Origin: Candidatus Gastranaerophilales bacterium
GTDB lineage: Bacteria; Cyanobacteriota; Vampirovibrionia; Gastranaerophilales; Gastranaerophilaceae
DNA: 64,000 nt
Assembly (NCBI GenBank): GCA_944325865.1
Contig: CALVBS010000003.1
Location: forward strand, 137,223-201,222
Direction: 5' to 3'
Notes under the pieces: generated by a model
Database searches by the model: none
What the model saw: the letters and a program-made list of their open reading frames with translations, nothing else
What the model was told of the DNA's origin: nothing
Shown here: piece by piece, positions 23,775 through 50,509 of the stretch
Position numbering within the stretch: the first letter of the stretch is position 1
How the letters are laid out: the number at the start of each line of letters is the position of its first letter
Position numbers and translations under genes: made by a program

Positions 23775-25412
23775 ATGTTAGATTCAGTTAATTTTTCGCA
23801 GGTAAATTTTAAGGGTTCCACAAATCTTATAGAGCAGTTTAAGGAAAAACAAAGTTCCTCTGCAGTAACAAATCCTGTACAGCCGCAGAAATCTGAAGTT
23901 TCTGCTCAAACAGGTGCTGAGGCTCTGGCAAATTATAATAGAGTGGCAATTTCAAAACCTGAACAAAAAAATCTACCTTCTGAAAAAAATATTGAAGCTG
24001 ACCTGCTTGCAAAATATAGCGATTTAAAACCTGCAGAGCCTATTAAAATAGATCAAAACTTTATGACAAACTTTAAAGGCGATAAAGTTACAGGTTCGGA
24101 TGGTATTGTCGAATATTATGAAGAAAAGTCAGGTGATATTTCAAAAATATACTTTGTTTTTGATAATAAAGTTTCTACAGCATATGAAGTTAATAATAAA
24201 ACCGGCAATATGATAAGAGAAGATTTATTTGATAAGGATGGGAAACCTCTTTCTGTGCTGGAGTACAATCCTGAAACAGGTATGGTAAATAAATATACTT
24301 CATTTGATTTGGACACAGGAAAACTTAATTCTGTTGCTGAATACGATGGCAGTGGTAATTGTGTAAGAAGTGTTATTTATGATACCAATACCGGCAATAT
24401 ATCACGTATATTTGAACATGATAAAGGTATTGACGGCGGTGTTGATGTTCATTATAAGTTTGAAAACGGAAAACTCGTAAGTAAAAAAGTAGAAAGTCCT
24501 CTGGATGGTAATACTATGGAAGCAACAAGATTTGTTGACGGAAAAGAACTTAAAACAGTAAAAACTAAACTGTATCCTGTAATCAATAATTCAGATATTG
24601 ATTTTTCAAAAATTGATATTCAGCCGTCAACTCTCGGCAATGTTGAATTGGATGTAAGTAAATTAAATGGTGAAAAGAAATTCCGTTCAAATAATACACT
24701 TGAATCGATTACGGTAAAAGACGGAAATATCACAAGAATTTATACAATGGATCCTACAGGAAATAAACTTGGTAACATTGAAGAAAAAGAAAATGACATA
24801 ATAAAACGCTCGATACATATAGACAAAGAAACCGGTAAATTAAATTCTATTGATGAGTTTGATGCACAGGGTAACAATATTAAATCTACTTATTTTAATA
24901 AAGACGGAAAGCCGGAAGGTGTATATGATACTCCAGCAGGAGCAAAAGACGGTGTTATGAGACGTGTATTCTATTACGATGACGGCAAACTCCGCGGCTA
25001 TGATATCAGCGATGGCAAAACTTTTGACTTGAAACATACTTTCCGTTTTGATAAATCCGGCAATCTGATTGAACATATGGAATATAACGAAGACGGTAAA
25101 AGTAAAGACCGTTATTATAATGAAATGATTGATTTCGTGGAAAACAAAACAGAAGATCCAAAAAATGCGGAAAGCATTGAATGGTTTAGAAAATTGTTAG
25201 CAAATCCTAATTGCGAAAAAACATATGTTCCGCAGGCAAACATTGTTCACGTTAAAGAAAAAGGTTTGATTGACGGTATGGAATATGATGTTTTCTCAAA
25301 CGGAACAGTCAGAGCTTACAGCAACTGGGGCAATGATGCAATTATTATGAATTCTAATGAGGAAATGATTAAACTCTTTAATGACTGTAAAGAAGAGCAT
25401 CATGATGATTAA
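23775..25412 (+). CDS. Tagged protein with YwqK/MORN-like beta repeats
   Basis: 545 residues. It starts MLDSVNFSQVNFKGSTNL, a short leader ending in Phe-Lys-Gly like other tagged proteins in this window, followed by a Pro/Gln/Ser-rich linker to about residue 95. The rest is a run of degenerate ~22-residue units of the type 'D..TGKLNSV.EYD..GN', for example around 150, 170, 190, 355 and 430, resembling YwqK/MORN or RHS-like strands that stack into a beta sheet. A final globular part (residues about 450-545) carries several Trp and Asn. There is no standard signal peptide. AGGAG precedes the ATG by eight bases. Function unknown; a structural or surface-contact role is a guess. Confidence 0.85.
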   Translation: MLDSVNFSQVNFKGSTNLIEQFKEKQSSSAVTNPVQPQKSEVSAQTGAEALANYNRVAISKPEQKNLPSEKNIEADLLAKYSDLKPAEPIKIDQNFMTNFKGDKVTGSDGIVEYYEEKSGDISKIYFVFDNKVSTAYEVNNKTGNMIREDLFDKDGKPLSVLEYNPETGMVNKYTSFDLDTGKLNSVAEYDGSGNCVRSVIYDTNTGNISRIFEHDKGIDGGVDVHYKFENGKLVSKKVESPLDGNTMEATRFVDGKELKTVKTKLYPVINNSDIDFSKIDIQPSTLGNVELDVSKLNGEKKFRSNNTLESITVKDGNITRIYTMDPTGNKLGNIEEKENDIIKRSIHIDKETGKLNSIDEFDAQGNNIKSTYFNKDGKPEGVYDTPAGAKDGVMRRVFYYDDGKLRGYDISDGKTFDLKHTFRFDKSGNLIEHMEYNEDGKSKDRYYNEMIDFVENKTEDPKNAESIEWFRKLLANPNCEKTYVPQANIVHVKEKGLIDGMEYDVFSNGTVRAYSNWGNDAIIMNSNEEMIKLFNDCKEEHHDD

Positions 25413-27572: not shown

Positions 27573-29675
27573 ATGAAAATTTATGCAATAAACACGACGG
27601 AAAAGTATCGTCAAAATCCATTGAAAATAAACGACAGTAAAAATAATAATACTGTTATCGGTAAAAGTGTTGACAGACAATACAATAGCGGGATTCCGAA
27701 AAATTTGTCATTAATTTATTTCGGAAGTTTAATTCAGCCTGCAAAGAGGCTTACAAAATCAGATTACTTGATTTCTGCATATATAAAAGAAATCGGTAAA
27801 GCCCGTTATCTTCACGGAGATCGGGCAGTTGTGGATTTATCGATGGGAAATCCTGATTTGACACCGCCGGAAAAAGCAAAGCAGGCATTGAAAGAAAAAG
27901 TTAATGACCTGTGGTCGCACAGATACAATAATCCTAAAGGTGAAGGGGCCTTATTTTATGCAGTTGAAAATTGGATGAAAACAAGATTTGGTGTGCAAAT
28001 TAATCCCAGAACCGAGGTTATGGCAACATCCGGTTCCTCAGATGCGGTTGACCATATCTTTACGGCATATGCAAACTACGGCGACAAAGTCCTTGTCCCT
28101 AATCCGGGCTACTCACTGTATGATGATTTGATAACAAGACATGATCTTAAAAAAGTCCAATTTGATTTGAAGCCAGAAAACGGTTATCTTCCGGATTTCT
28201 CAAAAATGCCTGATGATGCAAAAATTTTAATACTCAATTATCCTCATAATCCGACAGGTTCTTTCGCTCCAAAGAAAGTTTTTGAACAAGCAGTTGAGTG
28301 GGCTAAAAAACATAAAGTTCTGATTATACATGATATGGATAACAGTGAGGTTACTCACACAGGTCGAAAACCTGCAGGTATTATGCAGATTCCAGGAGCA
28401 AAGGAAGTTGCTTTTCAAGTGCATACAATGAGTAAGGCTCAAAGTATGCCGGGATTTAGAGTAGCATTTACAATAAGCGATAAAGAAAATATTGATAACC
28501 TTTTAAATGCGAAATATCTTTCAGGCGGCAGCGTTTATGTTCCGGTTCAACATGCGGCGGTTGCGGCGTTAAAAGATGAAGAAGGTTTTATCAATAAAAT
28601 TAACAAAATATACAGAGCCCGTAAAAATACAGCAATAAAATGGCTTAATAAGCTGGGCAGCGATGCTAAACCGACAGACGGAACGTATTATCTCTGGGCT
28701 AAAGTTCCTCCTGAATTTACTTCAGACGAATTTTTTAAATACGTACTTCATAAATCGCAGGTTGCATTTACTCCCGGTACGGTTTTTGGAACAAACGGAG
28801 AAGGGTATGTGCGTATTGTAATGTCTGCAGACGAAAATACTATTAATAAGTGTTTTGAAAGAATTGAAAAAGCCGGAATTCGTTTTGATGTGCCAAAAAG
28901 TAAACTGCCTCTGGAAACTCAAAAAGAAATTGCAAGTATGGCAGACGGTTCATATACGATTATACCAAAGGAGGACAGAGATTTTGCTCAATATATGGAA
29001 ACTCTGGCTTTAAGACGAACTCAACTTATACAAAGATTTGCTGATAAGGATTCAAAATTTTCAAAATTTATTCCTCAAAAAGACGTAAATTTACCGTGGA
29101 ATATTTTAAAAGACGGGCAGAGTGTTTATGTTCAGAATGTCAGAGAAGGCAAGCCTTTATTTGCAGATGTAAAAGATATCCTGCCTTTTAGTGATAAGTC
29201 TGAATACCTTACACTTGCAAATGACATTAAAAATCAATGGTTGAAAAAATCTTATCCCGATGCGGATATTTTACCTGCATATAAGTCAGTAACTTTATAT
29301 CCTGATGCAAATTACTTTACATTGCGGACTGAAGACGGAAGACTTCAGGCAGTTGCAAATGTTGAAATTCAAAATAATGGTGAAGTTTGGGGCAGAAGCC
29401 TTAATACTGCACCTTGGAATCAGGGTTCTGAGGCTGAAATTCGAGGCTGCGGAAAGGCTGTTATTGCACGTATGGTAAGTTTTTGTCTTGAAACCGGTAA
29501 TAAAATTCTGAAATTTGCAACTAATAAACCTGAAAACATCAAATTCTACAAAAATCTCGGGATGGTTGAAGACGGTACAAGAAATTTCAACGGTGAAATT
29601 CATACGGTTTTGAAATTTGATGAAGATTCAATGAAGACATTCCTAAATAAATATCAGATTAATTTGAGTTTTTAA
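27573..29675 (+). CDS. Fusion of a class I/II aminotransferase and a GNAT-like domain, with N-terminal tag
   Basis: 700 residues in three parts. Residues 1-60 are a polar leader with LSLIYFGSLIQ (Phe-Gly near 50). Residues about 65-435 are a fold-type I PLP aminotransferase: SMGNPDLTPPE, ATSGSSDAV, LNYPHNPTGS, HTMSKAQSMPGFRVAF with the PLP Lys K288, and R-containing GEGYVRIVMS. The usual Asp-x-Ala-Tyr motif is altered (HDMDN), so the Tyr that contacts PLP seems to be missing. Residues about 560-690 resemble a GNAT acyltransferase (RGCGKAVIARM, NIKFYKNLGMVEDG). Neither substrate is known; aminotransfer followed by N-acylation of the product is one hypothesis. No Shine-Dalgarno is seen. The 3' end overlaps the convergent gene by 17 bases. 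Confidence 0.85.
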   Translation: MKIYAINTTEKYRQNPLKINDSKNNNTVIGKSVDRQYNSGIPKNLSLIYFGSLIQPAKRLTKSDYLISAYIKEIGKARYLHGDRAVVDLSMGNPDLTPPEKAKQALKEKVNDLWSHRYNNPKGEGALFYAVENWMKTRFGVQINPRTEVMATSGSSDAVDHIFTAYANYGDKVLVPNPGYSLYDDLITRHDLKKVQFDLKPENGYLPDFSKMPDDAKILILNYPHNPTGSFAPKKVFEQAVEWAKKHKVLIIHDMDNSEVTHTGRKPAGIMQIPGAKEVAFQVHTMSKAQSMPGFRVAFTISDKENIDNLLNAKYLSGGSVYVPVQHAAVAALKDEEGFINKINKIYRARKNTAIKWLNKLGSDAKPTDGTYYLWAKVPPEFTSDEFFKYVLHKSQVAFTPGTVFGTNGEGYVRIVMSADENTINKCFERIEKAGIRFDVPKSKLPLETQKEIASMADGSYTIIPKEDRDFAQYMETLALRRTQLIQRFADKDSKFSKFIPQKDVNLPWNILKDGQSVYVQNVREGKPLFADVKDILPFSDKSEYLTLANDIKNQWLKKSYPDADILPAYKSVTLYPDANYFTLRTEDGRLQAVANVEIQNNGEVWGRSLNTAPWNQGSEAEIRGCGKAVIARMVSFCLETGNKILKFATNKPENIKFYKNLGMVEDGTRNFNGEIHTVLKFDEDSMKTFLNKYQINLSF

Positions 29676-43825: not shown

Positions 43826-43989
43826 ATTTGTTTTTGTTAAATTTGAGACGTCAATATCTGCTTTTTGAATGTTAGGGATAACGGATTACGCTTTGAATTT
43901 GTGTAAAAAAATGTAAAGATATTATCCTAAATGGCAAAAAATAATTTTGACGTGTCTTATATGTACAGACTTATTTGTGTGGAGTAAAG

Positions 43990-44994
43990 ATGATTTTACC
44001 TATTTCAAATTACAGCAGTAATGTTAAATTTTCTTCCGAGCCGAACAACGAGGAGAAAAAACTTCCTTATTCCAAAGATACATTATTAAAAAATAATCTT
44101 GGTACAAGAGCCCGTATCACTATGGATAAGGTTACAAATGCATTTACCGTTTATCCCGTTAAAGGTTTACGCGGAAGCCGAAATTCAAATTTTTATGAAT
44201 TTTTAACTATGGGTACGGTTCCTTATCTGATTGGAAGCGGCATGCTTATGGCTGTTTTTATGGGGCCTAACGGCAAATATAATCCTTTTAGCAGTGCTAA
44301 AGCAAAAGCTCTGGGTAAGAAAATGGCACTTGGGGTTTTGTTCTATGGTGTAATGAAAGAAATCGCAAAATCTTTTGTTACTAAGCCCGTTCAACTTTTA
44401 ACCGGAGTTGACACAACGGTTCCTTATGCCAAATTTATCTATGAATTGCCGGAAAGTATTGATGATACAGATATTACAAGTATAGAATATCATCAGGCTA
44501 TGGAAAGTACGGAATTTCCTCGCTGGGATTTGTTATACGGTGATGAATCAAAGGGAGAAACCCGTAATTTCAGATATGATAAAATTGCAAAAAAACTTGG
44601 CATGGGTGACAAACTGAATGATTCGGATCAGGAAGTTAAACAGAGAATAAAAGAAATTGTAGTAAAAACCATGACTGCTAAAAATCTTTCTTCATATTTA
44701 TGGGGAGCTTTAGGCGTATGTGTTGCTTTCCAGACTCCGTGGGAAGATTTCTTTAATACAAAAGGTTTTGCAAAATCAACAAAACAGTTCGGAAGATCAT
44801 TATGGGAAAGCATGAAAGAGTTTTATAACGGCAACGGTTCAGGATTGAGAAAACACTGCGGCAAATTATTACTGGGTATTGCTGCTTTATCTTCAATTCT
44901 AGGGGTTACAAATGTTATGTCAAGTTCTAAAAAACCGTCTAAACTTGATTCGGCGGATATAATAGAAAAAGACAGAAAGTATGTGGTGAACTGA
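43990..44994 (+). CDS. Tagged integral membrane protein, lineage type
   Basis: 334 residues from the ATG at 43990, placed by GTGTGGAG just upstream; the TTG at 43975 would lie before that site. It starts MILPISNYSSNVKFSSEPNN, a polar leader with an Asn-x-Lys-Phe core like the other tagged proteins. One hydrophobic helix lies near residues 75-95, another weaker near 110-125, a third near 225-240 and a fourth near 290-305. A soluble stretch from about 150 to 220 is acidic. I recognise no domain. It is the first gene of a three-gene operon: two bases separate it from the 898-residue protein. Confidence 0.85.
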   Translation: MILPISNYSSNVKFSSEPNNEEKKLPYSKDTLLKNNLGTRARITMDKVTNAFTVYPVKGLRGSRNSNFYEFLTMGTVPYLIGSGMLMAVFMGPNGKYNPFSSAKAKALGKKMALGVLFYGVMKEIAKSFVTKPVQLLTGVDTTVPYAKFIYELPESIDDTDITSIEYHQAMESTEFPRWDLLYGDESKGETRNFRYDKIAKKLGMGDKLNDSDQEVKQRIKEIVVKTMTAKNLSSYLWGALGVCVAFQTPWEDFFNTKGFAKSTKQFGRSLWESMKEFYNGNGSGLRKHCGKLLLGIAALSSILGVTNVMSSSKKPSKLDSADIIEKDRKYVVN

Positions 44995-44995
44995 T

Positions 44996-47692
44996 ATGAC
45001 TACAAACTTACTTTCCAATTACATTCATAATATTCCCAAACAGCCGGTTATACAGAATAATAATAACGGTACAAAGCATGATGTTCAGATTATTAATGTG
45101 AAAAAAGAAAAACCTCACTTTGATATAAACAGGGAATTGGCTAACAGAACTTTTATTAAACCTCTTCCTCCAAAAGCTCATCTTGTTAAAAACAGAATTT
45201 TTGATGCTCCTGCAATTTTCGTTAAAGACGCTGTTTATGATATGAAAGCTCTCAAAGACGGCTGGAAGGGTGAGGCTAATGACCACCAGCTCGGAAAACT
45301 GAATGATCTTGGTATGAAGCTTGGAGGTTTGGGAATTGCAGCATATTTATTTACAAGAAGACAAACCCCGACAACAAAAGCTATGGAGTTCATCGGGCTC
45401 GGTTCGTTCTTTGCATCAATGGTATTATGGCCTAAACTTGCACTTCAGCTTCCTGCCAGATTGATTCACGGATTTAATGTAATGCCTGAATATGAAGACA
45501 GTTACGGACGTAAAAAGCCGCTTTATCAGGATAATCTGTTTATTCCTTGGGATGCGGCTTATACTGATAAAGATATACATAAAATAGGCGACAGACTCGG
45601 TGTTCCAAAAGACATTCCTAACAGACGCGATTATATTCAGGAAAAAATGCGAATGATTGCACTTCAGAATAACACAATGTGGATGTTAACTGCAGGATTT
45701 GCAACTCCTATCATGAGTGCATTGATTTGTAACGGTTTAGAGCAGCCTGTAACAAGACTTCTTGATAAATACAACAGTAAAAAGGCTGACAGAATGCTTG
45801 TCGAATTTACTGATATTGCCAAACGTGAAAAAACAAATTCCATTAACAAATCAATAGATTCTCTTATTGAACTGTACAAAGAAAAACCTGTTAATGAAAA
45901 AATGATTGAATCCATTGCTAATGCTCTCGGAATTCAAAGAGATATGTTGACAGTTAATGCAATTAAGAAGGATTTAAAATCAATATTATTACCTGAAAAT
46001 ATGACATATCATGTATCAAAAGAGTTTATTCCTGATATTATTAAAAATTCCAGAGAAGTTCTTCTGAAAAAGTTTGATAGCTCGCTTATTGACCAGATTT
46101 TGCCAAGTGAAAAGCAGCTTCTTGAAAGACTTCAATCGGATGATGTTATTAAAGATTGTTCAAACCAGATAGGTGAAGGAAGTCATAAAGTTTTCAGAAT
46201 TAATAAACTTATTAACAATGATCTTTATAAGGATGAGGTTCTACGTATAAGCAGAGATTTTGACTCTTTAATCAGAGAAAATATCAAACGTTATAATGAA
46301 AGTCATCCTGAAAAAGCTTTGGATGCTGATGTTGATGTACCGGTTATATTGAAAGCAATTCAGGGTGAAACGCTGGAAAGCGGGCCTGTTGCTAAAGTTC
46401 TTCTTTCAATGCCTAATAACAAGTTTAATTCAAAAGCTCAATCTCTTGTAAAATATCTGGCAGAAGTAATGACTGATTTTACGGCTGAGGGTAAAGTTTT
46501 AAATAAATATGCCTTTACAAAATTCGGTGCAACTTCATCTCTTGCAAACTATTGGAACGAAGTTGACAGCAGTATGTTGAAAATTTTGGGCTTCAGTGAT
46601 AAAGATTTGAAAATGATAAAACATGATCGAAAACTTGTTGAGCCTATGCTTAGACAAAAGATAGAAGATATTGTTTCATCAAAACAAAAGTATGCAGAGG
46701 TTCTTGAAAAGCTTTGTAAAAAATTGTCAAAACTAAGTGAAACAGTTAAAGAACAAATAGTTCCGGAAGAATATAAGAAACGTGCGGATGAAGTCTATAC
46801 AGCTACCGCAGGTAAACTTAAAGACATTACTCTTGAAGATGGTTCTAAAGTTAATATGTCGGCATTGATAAAAGAACTTGTTGGCTACGATGATTTGTTG
46901 GATCAACAGAAAAATGGTAAAGATATAAGAGCATATTCACAAAAAGATTTGCAGAAAAATTTTGCGGAAATTCGAATGAAGGGTGTTTTGAGTTCCTTCA
47001 GACAGGCTATCAATGCACTTGATTTTTATGCAAGAGTGGCTAACCTTAAAAATCTCGATGTTAAATATCTTCCTGATGTTAAAATGCCTAGAGAGGTAAT
47101 GGAAGAACTGATTGAAGCTGCAAAAGGAATACAGCTTGACGGTCATATGTGCGATTATGAAACCAAATTCTATGTTCCGCGTCAGGTGTTCCCTAATGAT
47201 AAAGATACAAGTTTGCCTGAAGTGAAAGACGGTAAGCTGAATTTGAATTATGCAGGTAAACCTTCTGATTTAAGAAAAGTTGACATCCCTGATGATTCTT
47301 ATTTCTTCCACAATCTTATGGATTTGATGTATCAAAATGATATGCTGGATGAAACAAAAGAAATATTAGGTAAATACAACAGACTTGACGATATGAAGCA
47401 GCATCGTACTGATATGTTGACAAAGATTGGTGACGAAAACTATTTTGCGAAGAAATTCCATAAGTTGTTTACTCCATATGAAGATAAGAGAATTGCTTAC
47501 GCTGAAGATAAATTCTTTACGATAGGTAAATCATTTACGGATTTAATTTTTGATGCTGCAAATAAAGTTTATAATACAAAACAATGGCTTAAGATGTTCG
47601 GTTCAATAGGAGCTGCATTACTCGGTGTAACCGTAATATCCCAATTCTTTTTTGGAAAAACATCATTACCAAAGGATACAAAAAAGGGTTAA
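44996..47692 (+). CDS. Large membrane-anchored protein of unknown function
   Basis: 898 residues. A polar N-terminus (1-100) leads to two or three hydrophobic segments (about 103-118, 128-145 and 224-241). A very long soluble region of mainly helical, charged sequence (about 250-860) follows, then one C-terminal hydrophobic helix (FGSIGAALLGVTVISQFFFG). This could form a tethered scaffold on one face of the membrane. No catalytic motif is visible. It shares arrangement, though not obvious sequence, with the shorter protein before it. It starts two bases after that gene and is followed after three bases by the GH13 gene, so all three should be made together. Confidence 0.85.
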   Translation: MTTNLLSNYIHNIPKQPVIQNNNNGTKHDVQIINVKKEKPHFDINRELANRTFIKPLPPKAHLVKNRIFDAPAIFVKDAVYDMKALKDGWKGEANDHQLGKLNDLGMKLGGLGIAAYLFTRRQTPTTKAMEFIGLGSFFASMVLWPKLALQLPARLIHGFNVMPEYEDSYGRKKPLYQDNLFIPWDAAYTDKDIHKIGDRLGVPKDIPNRRDYIQEKMRMIALQNNTMWMLTAGFATPIMSALICNGLEQPVTRLLDKYNSKKADRMLVEFTDIAKREKTNSINKSIDSLIELYKEKPVNEKMIESIANALGIQRDMLTVNAIKKDLKSILLPENMTYHVSKEFIPDIIKNSREVLLKKFDSSLIDQILPSEKQLLERLQSDDVIKDCSNQIGEGSHKVFRINKLINNDLYKDEVLRISRDFDSLIRENIKRYNESHPEKALDADVDVPVILKAIQGETLESGPVAKVLLSMPNNKFNSKAQSLVKYLAEVMTDFTAEGKVLNKYAFTKFGATSSLANYWNEVDSSMLKILGFSDKDLKMIKHDRKLVEPMLRQKIEDIVSSKQKYAEVLEKLCKKLSKLSETVKEQIVPEEYKKRADEVYTATAGKLKDITLEDGSKVNMSALIKELVGYDDLLDQQKNGKDIRAYSQKDLQKNFAEIRMKGVLSSFRQAINALDFYARVANLKNLDVKYLPDVKMPREVMEELIEAAKGIQLDGHMCDYETKFYVPRQVFPNDKDTSLPEVKDGKLNLNYAGKPSDLRKVDIPDDSYFFHNLMDLMYQNDMLDETKEILGKYNRLDDMKQHRTDMLTKIGDENYFAKKFHKLFTPYEDKRIAYAEDKFFTIGKSFTDLIFDAANKVYNTKQWLKMFGSIGAALLGVTVISQFFFGKTSLPKDTKKG

Positions 47693-47695
47693 TAT

Positions 47696-49465
47696 ATGAT
47701 AAATTCAACAAATTTACTTCTTCAAAAAGTTAATAAACCTGCACCTCAGGCTCCGGCACAACCTCAGCTTGATAATAAAGTGTCTCAGCCGCAGCAGAGT
47801 TCAGCAAATATTTTGTCTTTATATCTGCAGAATTTGTCTAATATAAATAAGCCGATGGTTAATAATGCTACAGCCGTAACTGAATCAAAAGCTGCAGACA
47901 AAGTGTCTGATTCTGCTCCTGTAAAACAGATTGTTTACAGAAATAATCTTCGTTCTATGGTTCAAAATAATGAGGCAATTATACTTGCAATACTGCCTAG
48001 ATCTTTTAATGCAAAAGATACAAATAATAATGAATACATTGACGGTAATGAGCAATGCGGAACCTTCCTTAATGCTATAGAAAGACTTGATGAGGTTAAA
48101 GCAGACGGGTTTAATACTCTTCACCTTCTCCCGATACATCCTCCGGGAAAAATAAAGGCAATGGGTACAGCAGGGTCTGTATATTCTCCGCTTGATTTGT
48201 TGGAGATTGATCCGATGCTTGTAGATAAAAATGATCCACGCAGTCCGAAAGAACAGTGTAAGGCTTTTATTGACGAATGCCATAAACGAGACATAAAAGT
48301 TATGTTTGATTTGCCGAGCTGTGCATCTTATGAACTGTTTTTGAACCACCCGGAATGGATGGCAATGGAACGTGACGGTCTGGCAAAAACTCCTCAGGGA
48401 TGGAATGATATCAGAATGTTCCAGCCTTGGGAAGATGAAGGCAAAAGAACCCTTAATCCAAAACTTCTTGAATTACATAAACAGTTCATTGATATGTGTA
48501 TAGATTTGGGTGTTGATGGTATAAGAGCCGATGTTGCAAGAGCGAAACCTGTAGAATTCTGGGATATATTAATTCCATATTCCAGAATGCGAGACCCTGA
48601 ATTTGCATGGCTTGCCGAAACTTATACATATGAAGACGCCTCTCCTCAGGCTAATATGCCATATGATCGGCCGGAAGACTCTTTAAGAGCAGGTTTTGAT
48701 ATGATATACGGTCAATACCATATTTTCCATGAATGGCCGGACGCAAAAACATTAATGGATTATGTAAAAGAAAATCTTGATATGTCATATCGTTTAAGTC
48801 CAGGAAAGTCCCTAATCGGTTCATTTGCAACTCATGACGATATCTCTCCTATGTTCCATGGCGGAGCTGATTACTGCAAAATGACGGTTGCACTGCAGGC
48901 AGGGTTGCCAATGTTGAATATGTATCAAGTTGACGGTTTCCAGACCGGAGATGATTATACATACGATTGGGCCGGTAAATATAGTCCTGAAACTCAGACA
49001 GATAGTCATATTATGACAGTTCATGAAGGTAAACTTGATTTATTTAATCTTTCAAGAAAACCGGGCGGCGATGATGAATCAATCAGAACATTTATGCGTG
49101 CTGTTAATCATTTAAGAACAGAAAATGCTGATATTCTCGGGCCTAAAGGTACTTTTATCGAACTCGATAAAGAGGGCGATAAAAATGATCAAATTATTAC
49201 TTTCGCCCGTCATTATCAGGGAAGAACTCTGCTTTGGGTTGTTAATAAGAATGTTAATCGTGCCGTTGCATGTAAGATTAAGATTCCTACATTAAAGGCT
49301 GATCAAAAACTGGAGAACATGCTTCCTTCATACGGGCATGAAAGTATTTTCCAGCCTGTTGACGGAGAACTCAGGGTTGATGTTGGACCGGCAAGAGCTC
49401 ATGTATTTGAAATTGATACCCCTAATATTGAAAATTATACAAGAAAAGTATATAAACAAAATTAA
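47696..49465 (+). CDS. GH13 alpha-amylase-family protein
   Basis: 589 residues. Residues 1-80 are a Pro/Gln/Asn-rich low-complexity leader without a signal peptide. The (beta/alpha)8 domain has the GH13 regions: LHLLPIHPPG (I), GVDGIRADVARAKP with nucleophile D279 (II), WLAETYT with acid/base E308 (III) and SFATHDD with H380-D381 (IV), so it should be active. A small beta domain ends the protein. The substrate (glycogen-like glucan, sucrose or other) cannot be assigned. Being the third gene of an operon with two membrane proteins, it may be held at that membrane complex. A terminator follows. Confidence 0.88.
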   Translation: MINSTNLLLQKVNKPAPQAPAQPQLDNKVSQPQQSSANILSLYLQNLSNINKPMVNNATAVTESKAADKVSDSAPVKQIVYRNNLRSMVQNNEAIILAILPRSFNAKDTNNNEYIDGNEQCGTFLNAIERLDEVKADGFNTLHLLPIHPPGKIKAMGTAGSVYSPLDLLEIDPMLVDKNDPRSPKEQCKAFIDECHKRDIKVMFDLPSCASYELFLNHPEWMAMERDGLAKTPQGWNDIRMFQPWEDEGKRTLNPKLLELHKQFIDMCIDLGVDGIRADVARAKPVEFWDILIPYSRMRDPEFAWLAETYTYEDASPQANMPYDRPEDSLRAGFDMIYGQYHIFHEWPDAKTLMDYVKENLDMSYRLSPGKSLIGSFATHDDISPMFHGGADYCKMTVALQAGLPMLNMYQVDGFQTGDDYTYDWAGKYSPETQTDSHIMTVHEGKLDLFNLSRKPGGDDESIRTFMRAVNHLRTENADILGPKGTFIELDKEGDKNDQIITFARHYQGRTLLWVVNKNVNRAVACKIKIPTLKADQKLENMLPSYGHESIFQPVDGELRVDVGPARAHVFEIDTPNIENYTRKVYKQN

Positions 49466-49479
49466 TTTGGCATACATTA

Positions 49480-49531
49480 AATAAACGGAAAAATACTCAG
49501 TCCTTAGCGGCTGTGTATTTTTTCGTTTATT
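49480..49531 (+). terminator. Terminator of the GH13 operon
   Basis: AATAAACGGAAAAATAC / GTATTTTTTCGTTTATT, 17-bp arms with one mismatch and an 18-base loop. Confidence 0.8.
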
Positions 49532-49563
49532 ATAAAGTAGTGGCTTTTTTGAGGATTTTTTAG

Positions 49564-49576: not shown

Positions 49577-50509
49577 ATGAAGAGATTTTTATTTGTTTTA
49601 ACTTTATTATCAGTGTTGTCAATTAGTGTTCCGCTGGAAGCCCGTGCAGGTTTTATTGCGGATTACAAGGCTCGAATATCGGAAAACAGACAACTGGAAA
49701 ATACTGAGAAAGAAATCCGTGAAGTGTTTAATACTCAGGATAAATTTACAAACAGTTATAATTTTGAAGGTTTATATAAGCTTTATTCTGACGATTTTAT
49801 GAACAGCGACGGTTATAATAAGGAAGTTTACTTTAAACTTATTAAAGAAACCTGGGAAACTTATCCGGAAATTACTTATCAAACAAAAATATTGAATATA
49901 AACGTGACTTCAAACTATGCAACGGTCGAAACAAAGGAAACTGCTTTTGCCGTTACTGAAGAAAATAGTGAATATATCAGTGCCGTAGGCGAACTCCGTT
50001 CTGAAGCACATTGTATTTATCATCTTAAAAGGGATAAAGGAAAATGGCTTATTGCTGCGGAGGATATTCTTGATGAACGTTCTGCGTTGAAATACGGTGA
50101 TGCCAGATTTATTAAAATGGAGTTAAACGCTCCGACATTAATCGGTGCAGGTGAAAATTATTCTGCAGAATTAAAAGTTGATATGCCTGCGGATCAAATT
50201 GTAATTGCATCTATAGCCAGTGAAAAAATAGTTCAGCCGGTTGAACCGGCTCCTGAAAGATACAGGAAATTACCTTCCGATCAAATTTTAGAACGGTTGT
50301 TCATTGCAAATACTGATAATGTAAATGAATATAGTATCGCCTCTGTCGGAGTTACAAAGACGGAACCTGTTGATGAAGAAAATGTAAAAGTTTATATGAA
50401 CGGACTTGCTTTTTTGATGACAAGAGTAAATGTAGTTCCTAAAAATAATTTTATTAACATGGATGATAAACCTGCAGTAAAGGATGTAGAAGGTGGAAAA
50501 ACTAAGTAA
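49577..50509 (+). CDS. Secreted protein with NTF2/SnoaL-like domain
   Basis: 310 residues with a signal peptide (FLFVLTLLSVLSISVPLEARA). Residues about 40-165 look like an NTF2/SnoaL-type cone fold (FNTQDKFTNSYNFEGLYKLY, then WETYPEITYQTKILNINVTS and HLKRDKGKWLIAAEDI). The C-terminal part is beta-rich and unassigned. A periplasmic or surface binding role is possible; no catalytic residues stand out. The message may be leaderless. It overlaps lspA by 17 bases and is followed by an envelope and rRNA-modification gene run. Confidence 0.8.
   Translation: MKRFLFVLTLLSVLSISVPLEARAGFIADYKARISENRQLENTEKEIREVFNTQDKFTNSYNFEGLYKLYSDDFMNSDGYNKEVYFKLIKETWETYPEITYQTKILNINVTSNYATVETKETAFAVTEENSEYISAVGELRSEAHCIYHLKRDKGKWLIAAEDILDERSALKYGDARFIKMELNAPTLIGAGENYSAELKVDMPADQIVIASIASEKIVQPVEPAPERYRKLPSDQILERLFIANTDNVNEYSIASVGVTKTEPVDEENVKVYMNGLAFLMTRVNVVPKNNFINMDDKPAVKDVEGGKTK

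Follow-up and report, generated by a model that had tools for sequence, protein, structure and literature searches.

What is the role of a GH13 enzyme that lacks a signal peptide and is encoded directly behind two membrane proteins without a recognizable family? The question is raised by three plus-strand genes, here called g1, g2 and g3 (43990-49465 in the ORF listing), in the genome of a member of Candidatus Gastranaerophilales, an uncultured gut order related to cyanobacteria. All positions refer to the window, i.e., the whole stretch of 64,000 nucleotides that was analyzed. The order inhabits the guts of animals and humans; its members have been described, from genomes only, as fermenters of starch and glycogen (PMC3787301, PMC4040986). 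No paper on the g1-g2-g3 operon was found in the literature.

Organization of the locus

The three genes are tightly spaced, as stated in the initial annotation, with measured gaps of 1 base between g1 and g2 and 3 bases between g2 and g3, and not of two and three bases as given there (Table 1). Read from the ATG at 43990, g1 encodes 334 aa; the mechanical ORF of 339 aa starts from a TTG at 43975 and ends at 44994. A single strong hairpin (RNA of 49466-49545, U-rich 3′ arm) follows g3, which is consistent with a terminator and in line with the proposal that the three genes share one. Further downstream, a 310-aa protein with a signal-peptide-like start and no family match is encoded at 49577-50509, a gene that is also located 3′ of the trio in congeners.

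Table 1. Features of the g1-g2-g3 locus, with positions in the window.
Feature	Position	Strand	Evidence
g1: 334-aa membrane protein, four hydrophobic segments, no known family	43990..44994	+	AlphaFold2 pLDDT 76.7
FxG-type N-terminal tag of g1 (VKFSS)	44023..44037	+	tag in 49/73 g1 proteins vs 5.4 expected in shuffles
g1 membrane module homologous to g2	44080..44727	+	hhalign probability 97.5%, E 5.3e-12 (one-to-one comparison)
g2: 898-aa membrane protein, paralogue of g1 with large helical insertion	44996..47692	+	AlphaFold2 pLDDT 77.7
N-terminal peptide of g2 (NLLSNYIHN)	45005..45031	+	motif in 68/78 g2 proteins vs ~1 in shuffles
g2 membrane module homologous to g1	45179..45727	+	profile comparison; hydrophobic segments in matching positions
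g2 helical insertion, ~600 residues, between third and fourth hydrophobic segments	45731..47596	+	AlphaFold2 model, hydrophobic segments
g3: 589-aa GH13 enzyme without signal peptide	47696..49465	+	PF00128, PDB matches, N-terminus
N-terminal peptide of g3 (NILSLYLQN), g2 type	47807..47833	+	motif in 75/80 g3 proteins vs ~1 in shuffles
g3 D279, expected catalytic nucleophile	48530..48532	+	invariant, 22 homologues
g3 E308, expected acid/base	48617..48619	+	invariant, 22 homologues
g3 D381, expected transition-state stabilizer	48836..48838	+	invariant, 22 homologues
Terminator-like hairpin after g3	49477..49533	+	-29.2 kcal/mol, z -6.9

Conservation of the three genes within the order

Among 39 relatives (named relatives are Candidatus Gastranaerophilales or Melainabacteria MAGs), g1 was matched in 33 genomes, g2 in 34 and g3 in 37, the last count being higher because a solo GH13 paralogue was counted too. 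In an order-wide set of 117 genomes, g1 was found in 110, g2 in 111 and a full-strength match to the trio-type GH13 in 110; the genes are either present together (about 110 genomes) or absent together, the latter in six genomes (G024, G030, G032, G035, G318, G319) that have neither g1 nor g2 nor a strong trio-type GH13 match. Both g1 and g3 occur in 109 genomes, and in 107 of these they lie on one contig at a distance of at most 5.3 kb, while in the remaining two (G027 and G234) they are split between contigs. The order g1-g2-g3 was observed in 73 of 80 named loci, the other seven being cut by a contig end, and all 80 are consistent with it; in G320 the genes are rearranged to g3-g1-g2 and still clustered. 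The genes flanking the trio vary between genera. Conservation as a unit is thus what the order displays, and the trio-type GH13 was never seen free: the GH13 that does occur free is a different paralogue equipped with a signal peptide.

Matches to g2 in 292 genomes of the phylum were confined to the order, bar a single marginal one (E 2.5e-4), and five genomes from another family of the same class gave none. At the level of sequence comparison, g2 is without a convincing match elsewhere in the phylum, in agreement with the earlier view of an arrangement particular to this lineage. Co-presence and co-absence, near-constant adjacency and the confinement of g2 to the order therefore identify the trio as an order-specific unit, and its conservation rules out chance adjacency. 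The retention, in nearly all genomes, of an operon that includes two membrane families without database counterparts indicates a core function overlooked by annotation.

These data also bear on a simpler reading of the locus as an ordinary operon, in which a cytoplasmic GH13 is co-transcribed with two membrane proteins of the same pathway or condition (e.g., glucan sensing or transport) and is not physically associated with them. It would be compatible with the fact that no function can be assigned to g1 or g2, but we regard it as unlikely given that the genes are co-present or co-absent in 117 genomes while their flanks change, that the clustering survives a permuted order, and that g2 and g3 have an N-terminal peptide in common (see below).

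Two paralogous membrane proteins

No family of Pfam or NCBIfam covers g1 or g2 in any member examined, and the initial statement that neither has a known domain therefore stands. A match of g2 to PF02542 (YgbB/IspF; E 4.9e-4) was rejected as spurious, being below the Pfam cut-off and present in only 1 of 23 homologues. In a profile-profile alignment (hhalign), residues 36-251 of g1, numbered from the TTG, were aligned to residues 62-244 of g2 with a probability of 97.5% and an E-value of 5.3e-12 that refers to a one-to-one comparison. Each protein has four hydrophobic segments at matching places, and separately computed AlphaFold2 models display the same order of elements, i.e., helix, helix, long helix, beta hairpin, helix, long helix and C-terminal helix. 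g1 and g2 are paralogues with a common four-segment membrane module, and they differ by a helical insertion of about 600 residues before the last hydrophobic segment of g2. The loops close to the membrane are positively charged on all sides, so that the positive-inside rule favors no particular face for the g2 domain.

Fold searches with the predicted models revealed no outstanding PDB fold for g1 or g2. Foldseek returned nothing under E 0.001, and the best VIA-align Z values of 6.4 (g1) and 7.5 (g2) are within the range common for helical models, so that we do not claim a new fold for either protein. Additionally, the C-terminal segment of g2 weakly matches (E 3e-6 to 1e-4) frames of about 1,030-1,070 aa in four genomes (G053:C4, G076:C14, G155:C53, G092:C1), which may represent further members of this membrane family.

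The GH13 enzyme and its exported paralogue

With 23.4 bits, g3 scores just over the curated cut-off of 22 for PF00128, and it matches solved GH13 structures (3dhu with 1.2e-15 and, by profile, 4gkl with 3.7e-26); its profile matches in the PDB cover several activities. The triad D279, E308 and D381 is invariant in 22 homologues, D279 presumably being the nucleophile, as expected from what is generally known of GH13. Region I reads DLPSC or DVPAC in place of DxVxNH and the usual histidine is absent, so that the "complete catalytic set" initially ascribed to the enzyme holds for the triad only. Since the region-I histidine is not universal within GH13, we keep g3 in the family.

None of the trio GH13s has a hydrophobic N-terminus (0/25 and 0/78), as correctly noted at the outset for this one, and g3 does not carry the N-terminal signal peptide that characterizes a secreted alpha-amylase. 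Such an N-terminus was found in seven of eight solo GH13 paralogues examined. The solo copy of this genome (G000:C6:89729) is 41% identical to g3 and located away from g1 and g2. With a signal peptide on the solo and none on the trio enzyme, we predict exported and non-exported branches of one GH13 family in the same cell.

A putative EF-hand-like loop recurs near the start of the GH13 catalytic domain (e.g., DLNENGIIDFDE in the solo copy). An EF-hand-like DFNKDGKVTYDDY stretch is also found at the start of two tandem, near-identical genes of about 628 aa directly 3′ of the trio in one relative (L107 11064-14983, G028). The gene following the solo GH13 (L114 8252-9259, G000:C6) encodes a protein of 335 aa that has a single hydrophobic segment and matches no family; four congeneric loci retain this gene next to that of the solo GH13.

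A fourth gene and short N-terminal peptides

In several genera the gene directly 3′ of g3 encodes a GH13-like protein of 1,100-1,600 aa (g4). Three of five g4 members match PF00128, GH13 motifs are conserved, and the triad positions are kept in those members that cover them; profile match and triad together place g4 in GH13. Of the 117 genomes, 113 have a g4 match (weak in a few cases); in most of them, including the genome studied here (1469-aa frame on G000:C5), the gene is unlinked to the trio. Judged by coordinates, g4 is the next gene after g3 in about 15 genomes, which belong to several families, and gene maps confirmed this for more than half of them. Glucan processing as the role of the locus is supported as far as GH13 family and triad go, and also by the fact that g4 belongs to the operon in several lineages. 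The genome also encodes cytoplasmic alpha-glucan enzymes, namely GlgA, one phosphorylase (TIGR02094) and three GH57 regions; no further GlgB-type GH13 emerged from a PF00128 search, which likewise failed to pick up g4 and the divergent solo copy.

About 75 N-terminal residues are variable in g2 and g3. Since the N-terminal motifs were defined only once the sequences had been inspected, and since these sequences are related to one another, the following counts reflect retention in a variable region and not independent origins: NL[IL]xxYIxN or close variants occur in 68 of 78 g2 and 75 of 80 g3 proteins from the 80 named loci (about one in shuffles; 4/293 other proteins) and in 10/26 g2 and 12/25 g3 proteins of a more divergent set, and an FxG-type tag occurs in 49 of 73 g1 proteins (5.4 expected) and 16 of 17 g4 proteins (1.9 expected). 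The NL[IL]xxYIxN peptide is absent from g1. Over all proteins, the FxG tag was found in 35 of 284 against 22.7 expected, which is not significant with the pattern used, and we therefore claim it for g1 and g4 only; a looser pattern was dropped because chance matches were too many.

Similar N-termini were observed elsewhere. A 545-aa protein of the window (23775-25412) starts with a VNFKG tag, followed by NLIEQFKEK and DUF2963 repeats, and thus has both peptide types of the trio adjacent to each other. A 700-aa protein (27573-29675) combines a variable N-terminal extension with a class I/II aminotransferase domain and an uncharacterized C-terminal part that may be acetyltransferase-like. In another genome (L105 8892-10439, G037), a 515-aa protein with a VSFSG tag is encoded 5′ of g1; it has no sequence match in Pfam or the PDB and looks like another barrel glycosidase.

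The peptides could alternatively act as non-Sec export signals, in which case the unit would be periplasmic or surface-located and work on dietary starch, in a manner similar to the starch-utilization (Sus) systems without being one of them. The order is gut-dwelling and described as using starch, multi-segment membrane partners would suit an envelope role, and an alternating topology with the N-terminus inside, as deduced from the hydrophobic segments, would put the g2 insertion outside. However, these genomes also contain a branch of this GH13 family that carries Sec signals, so that export of these GH13s already proceeds by another route, and the operon is devoid of secretion genes. Moreover, a protein of the window with a similar short N-terminal extension is an aminotransferase (27573-29675), and aminotransferases are normally cytoplasmic. 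We consider non-Sec export improbable.

A proposed membrane-tethered unit for alpha-glucan processing

The explanation that we favor, with a probability of about 0.5, is a Gastranaerophilales-specific, membrane-tethered unit in which alpha-glucan, either glycogen or maltodextrin, is processed at the cytoplasmic face. The paralogous four-segment membrane proteins g1 and g2 would form or anchor a scaffold, to which g2 would contribute its large helical domain. g3 would be an active GH13 hydrolase or glucanotransferase on glycogen or maltodextrin, drawn to the scaffold via a short peptide of the type that g2 also bears, set in a disordered N-terminal linker, and g4, with its g1-type tag, would work in the same system. 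The peptides would thus be docking elements, g3 and g4 being held at the membrane by g1 and g2.

The tethered unit is favored by the joint presence or absence and the adjacency of the trio amid changing flanks, the paralogy of g1 and g2, the invariant triad of g3, its lack of export as opposed to the exported solo paralogue, the occurrence of NLIxxYIxN on g2 and g3 and of FxG on g1 and g4, the presence of g4 as a further operon member in some 15 genomes, and the cytoplasmic glycogen enzymes encoded (GlgA, TIGR02094 phosphorylase, GH57). A non-exported GH13 beside two membrane proteins suggests that starch- or glycogen-like polymers are processed in a membrane-held assembly, and the membrane module and the peptide common to g2 and g3 fit with this. 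We infer the physical association of the trio in such an assembly, as well as the recruitment or docking by peptides, the cytoplasmic face, the substrate and the reaction. Points against the tethered unit are the unrecognizable fold of g1 and g2, loops that are positive on all sides, the mostly unlinked g4, the post-hoc definition of the motifs and the weaker peptides in distant families (10/26, 12/25). That g3 acts elsewhere (e.g., on sucrose, trehalose or an envelope glycan) or is mainly structural would accord with the many activities of GH13, the absent region-I histidine and the only distant similarity to characterized enzymes, but is very unlikely in view of the invariant triad and of nearest solved relatives that are alpha-1,4-glucan enzymes by name (4gkl, 3dhu, 1gju).

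More tentatively, and with considerable doubt, the locus might represent an undescribed membrane-anchored metabolic assembly of two paralogous scaffolds and two GH13-type enzymes with two sets of N-terminal peptide addresses, the FxG address also serving other enzymes of the lineage. Should enzymes indeed be directed to a membrane scaffold by the peptides, this would be a new bacterial way of organizing alpha-glucan metabolism.

Comparison with known systems

With the GH13 alpha-amylases 4gkl and 3dhu and the maltodextrin glycosyltransferase 1gju, g3 shares the catalytic barrel and the D-E-D triad, and with 1gju also the start motif LPRxxxA...GTF. It differs from all three in its long variable N-terminal linker with NLIxxYIxN, in the missing region-I histidine and in always being encoded with g1 and g2. 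The solo GH13 paralogue of the order has the same catalytic core as g3 and is distinguished from it by its signal peptide and its separate position. In the Sus systems of Bacteroidetes, as in the trio, a GH13 enzyme comes with its own envelope-associated partner genes. The enzymes of Sus are exported and paired with SusC/SusD, whereas g3 has no signal peptide and SusC/SusD-like partners were not found, g1 and g2 being without a Pfam or NCBIfam family in any member. Among the clustered, partly annotated neighbor genes of the trio, no microcompartment shell protein was identified. Like the encapsulation peptides of microcompartments, g3 has a short helix-like N-terminal peptide and a variable linker, and such a peptide could address an enzyme to a structure (PMC7221423); in the trio, the presumed target of the peptide would instead be a pair of membrane proteins.
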